Shown here: positions 33,486-33,549 of the stretch, in pieces | Position numbering within the stretch: the stretch's first letter is position 1 | Layout of the letters: every line of letters starts with the position of its first letter | From: a virus | Strand: one strand, 5' to 3' | DNA: 36,800 bases | IMG/VR virus record: IMGVR_UViG_3300024518_003939 | Span: 1-36,800 of that record | Notes under the pieces: generated by a model | Told to the model about the DNA's origin: nothing | The model's database searches: none | The model's input: only the letters and a program-made list of their open reading frames with translations | Position numbers and translations under genes: made by a program

Positions 33486-33549
33486 TGAATGCGAATCATT
33501 CTGATTTCGGTTAGGGGGGGGTAGCCGAAATAAGAATGATTCGCATTCA
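33486..33549. repeat. 28-bp inverted repeat with G8 centre
   Basis: Arms 33486-33513 and 33522-33549 match at 26 of 28 positions and are separated by exactly eight G. It could extrude as a long hairpin. It is not followed by a T tract, so it is not a standard terminator. It ends 147 bases before the terminase-like gene. Confidence 0.93.

Follow-up and report, generated by a model that had tools for sequence, protein, structure and literature searches.

A long inverted repeat around eight G lies in front of a gene that resembles a small terminase gene. What does the phage use it for? The DNA analysed here, called the window below, is the whole IMG/VR record IMGVR_UViG_3300024518_003939 (36.8 kb). 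A preliminary description made from the sequence alone had proposed a packaging site (pac or cos), a DNA end or a cruciform signal.

The inverted repeat and its surroundings

The 28-bp inverted repeat was found exactly where it had been described, at 33486–33549. Its arms (33486–33513 and 33522–33549) flank GGGGGGGG (33514–33521) and pair at 26 of their 28 positions; the two mismatches are one G against A and one T-G pair. A repeat search stretches the inverted repeat to 34-nt arms (33480–33555, 88%). When the whole window was shuffled 30 times by mononucleotides, the best 28-bp arm reached 18–20 and never more than 20 of 28. The inverted repeat is thus far beyond chance. Two other strong inverted repeats were found in the window, a terminator-like stem at 32826–32867 and a 25/28 palindrome at 33325–33380. 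The features of the region are listed in the table.

Table. Features of the repeat and of the DNA around it (positions in the window)
Feature	Position	Strand	Basis
Inverted repeat with a G8 loop, 28-bp arms matching at 26/28	33486..33549	.	sequence inspection, repeat search, shuffles
G8 tract in the loop	33514..33521	.	no G/C run in the window is longer
Left Fur-type operator AATGCGAATCATTCTGATT, 12/12 of AATNNNAATNATTNNNATT, 13/19 to E. coli GATAATGATAATCATTATC	33488..33506	+	motif scan
Right Fur-type operator, reverse complement AATGCGAATCATTCTTATT, 12/12	33529..33547	-	motif scan
Palindrome-rich non-coding region, 576 bp, between gene 32929–33120 and the terminase-like gene	33121..33696	.	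ORF and repeat analysis
Second large palindrome, 25/28, no loop	33325..33380	.	repeat search
Intrinsic terminator, closes the upstream transcription unit	33146..33167	+	terminator analysis
Zur-like core GTTATAACATAAC, weak lead	33283..33295	.	motif search
Probable small terminase, HTH-like N-terminus, GTG start; weak assignment	33697..34167	+	gene order, TerS-profile resemblance

Three readings of the repeat were ruled out. The sequence bears out the earlier remark that no T tract follows the repeat on its 3' side, and so the stem is not an intrinsic terminator. A protelomerase telomere site was rejected because the G8 centre breaks the symmetry and no protelomerase was recognised in PHROG scans. 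A host REP-type mobile palindrome was rejected as well, since the inverted pair has 0 matches in 257 Gb of genomes.

The repeat does lie upstream of the terminase-like gene, at a distance of 148 bp, but the naming of this gene as a small terminase (TerS) stands less firmly than its position. Gene order and a resemblance to a TerS profile in the HTH region (hhalign p 0.0046, probability only 7.6) make a small terminase plausible. Sequence searches of Pfam, PHROG and PDB gave no significant match for the gene, and its AlphaFold model (pLDDT 50) was unusable. We found no relatives of the protein in viral contigs, none by a search with the upstream gene or by a nucleotide search of phage records, and no TerS gene in the records of the window's relatives. 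The gene order comes from the twin contig L003, which is 99.9% identical and bridges window positions 36085–36800 to window positions 1–13007 via 6.3 kb; therefore, the map is circular at about 43.1 kb. By our reading of its sequences, the bridge encodes a LamG-like protein, a large terminase and a portal, and the latter two lie downstream of the terminase-like gene. In a second sample, a contig (L234) seems to begin about 32 bp past the window end (36800), inside a LamG-like gene; this is possibly a variable region that breaks assembly.

Some further observations were made in the neighbourhood. Two successive genes end in duplicated DNA that includes their terminators (32795–32871 and 33102–33181, 85–88% identical). 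An Rfam match to the int-alpA RNA (RF02996; 34265–34343, plus strand, 40.5 bits, above the gathering score) follows the terminase-like gene and precedes the next ORF; a literature search on this RNA family gave nothing useful. The Zur-like neighbour AACGTTATAACNTAACG was rejected as a general phage motif: only 11 phage contigs carry it, and it is not over-represented.

Probable Fur-type operators in the arms and their bacterial copies

Using a motif scan, we showed that each arm holds the 19-bp layout of a Fur operator with all 12 of its 12 positions, and that these are the only sites with at least 11/12 in the window. In sixty dinucleotide shuffles of the window no site reached 12/12, and on average 0.15 sites scored at least 11/12. 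Counted by hand against the E. coli consensus GATAATGATAATCATTATC taken from PMC6922518, the left arm agrees at 13/19 positions and the right arm at 12/19, below the threshold of at least 14/19 that one study demanded for a Fur box (PMC6922518).

The core of the arm, GAATGCGAATCATTCT, occurs in 118 IMG/VR contigs, whereas a comparable 16-base control taken from this region gave 11. One lineage accounts for at least 39 of the 118 contigs; the counts are therefore not independent and are inflated by lineage replication. Most copies of the core (93 of 121) continue with CAT. When aligned, they show the layout AAT-NNN-AAT-C-ATT-NNN-ATT, with the same spacing as in Fur hexamer arrays.

A search of 257 Gb of bacterial and archaeal genomes gave only 10 copies of the 19-base pattern GAATGCGAATCATTCTNATT, and at least five of these ten adjoin iron or siderophore-type genes. 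Their Pfam neighbours include FeoB (L218), PepSY_TM (L215), FecR (L222) and an ABC transporter permease (L219). A TonB-dependent receptor lies 42 bp downstream of the site in L217, and in L221 the neighbours are a phosphopantetheinyl transferase/thioesterase pair. An exact 20-mer of the left arm occurs in L216, and the right-arm 20-mer AATAAGAATGATTCGCATTC is located upstream of the Curvibacter TonB receptor (L217) and near the Janthinobacterium FecR gene (L222). The host copies overlap sigma70-like promoters in 30% of cases, compared to 2% in the flanks. Because the sequence adjoins host iron genes, we regard it as a genuine bacterial Fur-type site despite its 13/19 and 12/19 agreement with E. 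coli. The arms thus share with bacterial Fur boxes (arrays of GATAAT hexamers, canonical form GATAATGATAATCATTATC) the hexamer spacing, the palindromy and exact 20-mers of both arms. They differ in having hexamers of the GCG type, in their lower agreement with E. coli, in the inverted arrangement of the pair in a phage, and in lacking a recognisable promoter.

A search for the repeat in relatives had been suggested. In 26 records of relatives, the motif at 11/12 or better was absent from all but one, which has a marginal site. This leans against deep conservation in this lineage, although the records come from distant phages (capsid proteins mostly 49–62% alike, 28% in one), are in many cases fragmentary, and in few cases are shown to cover the equivalent region.

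Copies in other phages and their neighbours

In phages, the sites are intergenic: only 7 of 71 lie inside ORFs, and the median gap that holds them is 654 bp. We compared two sets of phage copies, set 1, which includes the arm variant of the window, and set 2, built on the canonical variant AATGAGAATCATTCTCATTT. Among the neighbouring genes of set 1, 24 of 60 match the TerS family phrog_1482 (0 of 57 controls), and phrog_16503 accounts for one more; most of the contigs with a TerS gene come from a single lineage. In set 2 a TerS gene was adjacent in only 1 of 92 genes. Therefore, large non-coding regions, rather than TerS genes, are the common denominator.

The motif also occurs close to genome ends. 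It lies inside the annotated terminal repeat of T5, phiR2-01, My1, chee130_1, K37, Seabear and Sugarland, about 30–670 bp from the right edge of the repeat in these seven T5-like records, and inside that of Muenster, 783 bp from the left end. The motif is found inside or near the terminal repeats of T5-like and RaK2-like phages. In the linear record of HK542, this Fur-like site (L231 106–127) stands 106 bp from the right end, and a C8 run accompanies it at about 100 bp. Around the motif, contig ends are about three times as frequent as expected (15 within 200 bp, compared to 5.1).

A counterpart of the pair was found in a 91.6-kb phage contig (IMGVR_UViG_3300042902_000064), where two inverted boxes lie in non-coding DNA after a terminator-like hairpin and the 20-mer AAATAAGAATGATTCGCATT is common to this contig and the right arm of the window. 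It is another phage, and its pair has no G8 loop.

Binding sites of other host regulators accompany the motif. Within 400 bp of the set 1 copies, the LexA pattern CTGT-N8-ACAG is 39-fold enriched, compared to 3-fold for a spacer of 9 and no near matches for spacers of 6, 7 and 10; the DnaA box TTATCCACA is enriched 22-fold. The independent set 2 gave 6-fold enrichment for LexA and 15-fold for DnaA, with 0.8 for a one-base control, and further Fur-layout sites were enriched 40-fold. When one phage lineage (TerS-A) was left out, LexA was still enriched 16-fold and DnaA 22-fold. A motif scan of the region around the repeat in the window revealed no LexA box and no strict DnaA box. In the TerS-A lineage itself, G/C runs of at least 7 stand beside the motif in 28 of 30 loci and in none of the far controls. 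Two other patterns were observed in TerS-A contigs. Palindromes of the type GGGTTTACCC are 36-fold enriched by the Fur-type box (76 copies at 30 sites; L072 near 7885–8200, L083). The pattern GTTC-N7-GTTC, which we take to be an alphaproteobacterial LexA-type layout, is 79-fold enriched near the motif in set 1, and spacers of 6 and 8 gave 0–0.4-fold.

In T5 such sites come together. One 2.2-kb gap in its left terminal repeat (LTR) contains seven overlapping Fur-layout sites, a LexA box with 19/20 agreement and a DnaA box. The LexA box is the annotated palindrome D, TACTGTATAAATATACAGTA (L230 1254–1273; T5 9330–9349), and its LexA-type sequence also occurs in DT57C and twice in phiR2-01. The motif falls within palindromes E–I of the left terminal repeat, which together with direct repeat C (AY587007 9473–9637) are located in the injection-stop-signal region, which has been described as repeats, palindromes and DnaA boxes (PMC13250531). 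A literature search of limited extent found no paper that assigns the T5 palindromes to Fur or LexA, and a similarly limited search for Fur boxes in phage genomes, in titration, LexA or DnaA contexts, found no relevant paper. Both T5 and the window have a long palindrome-rich non-coding region (inside the terminal repeat in T5) with sites of the AATNNNAATNATTNNNATT layout, which are clustered in T5, and each half of palindrome H of T5, a 56-bp unit, contains boxes. The T5 sites overlap and are accompanied by LexA and DnaA boxes. In the window there is a single clean inverted pair, centred on G8, upstream of a terminase-like gene and with no LexA or DnaA box there.

Alternative explanations and a putative role of the repeat

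We consider it probable, from the arm sequences and their distribution, that the repeat is a back-to-back pair of Fur-type operators in packaging-proximal non-coding DNA, a putative docking or decoy site for host Fur. An ordinary operator, through which Fur would repress or activate the promoter of the downstream (terminase, late) operon or of a divergent one and the phage would sense iron or the state of the host, is unlikely. The repeat follows a terminator and precedes the next transcription unit, and the host copies overlap promoters. However, a search of 33180–33700 for a sigma70-like promoter found none, the best score overlapping the boxes being 7/12. Promoter overlap is typical of Fur boxes and does not strictly define them. 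The phage copies of set 1 overlap promoters in 9% of cases, compared to 14% in the flanks, and are thus not enriched, while set 2 shows some overlap (46% compared to 29%); the promoter argument is therefore clearest for set 1. Unlike hosts, phages often carry extra, clustered copies of the motif. Together with the weak promoter overlap, these multiple copies speak for titration or a protein-bound block rather than for simple promoter control, and most likely the repeat is not an ordinary promoter operator.

The proposal of a packaging site has to be divided. The position does appear meaningful: copies of the arm sequence precede small terminases from at least two PHROG families and lie near genome ends, as the terminal repeats of the T5-like phages and Muenster, the end of HK542 and the excess of nearby contig ends show, and in the window it precedes a probable, if weakly assigned, TerS gene. 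That the phage's own small terminase recognises or cuts the repeat, the likeness to Fur sites being incidental or borrowed, is nevertheless quite unlikely. The identical sequence is a host Fur operator found at bacterial iron-uptake genes, set 2 nearly lacks TerS adjacency, and the motif is common to phages whose TerS proteins come from different families; since such proteins are unlikely to share one site, recognition specific to TerS is not the best reading. A packaging site beside a host-protein site has a known model. In lambda-type cosB, the host DNA-binding protein IHF has its site beside the packaging site, and a host-protein site next to a packaging site in the window would be analogous; the protein in lambda is IHF rather than Fur, and the analogy concerns the host-protein site, not cosN or R sites. 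An RNA element, that is, a long hairpin in the 5' leader of the terminase operon serving as an RNase III site, stabiliser or anti-terminator, is very improbable. The segment 33170–33700 does fold far better than its shuffles (z -8.8), with the hairpin of the inverted repeat as a main part of the structure, but DNA-level palindromy explains this folding. An Rfam search with the repeat gave nothing above the gathering score, only chance scores of the microRNA type, and in phages the arm recurs mostly as a single DNA motif without a hairpin partner. A cruciform formed by the repeat is possible.

If the repeat is a docking or decoy site, host Fur, or a close protein of the FUR family, would bind both arms once the phage DNA is in the cell. 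The repeat would then be part of a habit of phages to carry clustered sites for host regulators, Fur sites often joined by LexA and DnaA boxes, in non-coding DNA close to packaging genes or genome ends. Such clusters may titrate the host repressor or act as a protein-bound block or dock, and the Fur-type sites may have a role in DNA entry or packaging. More tentatively, and as a proposition that we hold to be possible rather than probable, many unrelated lytic phages may carry arrays of sites for host repressors (Fur, LexA) and DnaA near termini or packaging genes, as sponges or as gates for entry or packaging; the T5 injection-stop palindromes and the repeat of the window would be two instances.

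Phages may thus capture or exploit the master repressors of their hosts. No record of such a role was found in the literature searched. If it holds for phages as unlike as T5, jumbo phages of the RaK2-like kind and small environmental phages, whose site clusters often lack promoters, host repressors would join the DNA entry, packaging or takeover of these phages. It would also provide a molecular candidate for the proteins bound at the injection-stop region of T5.
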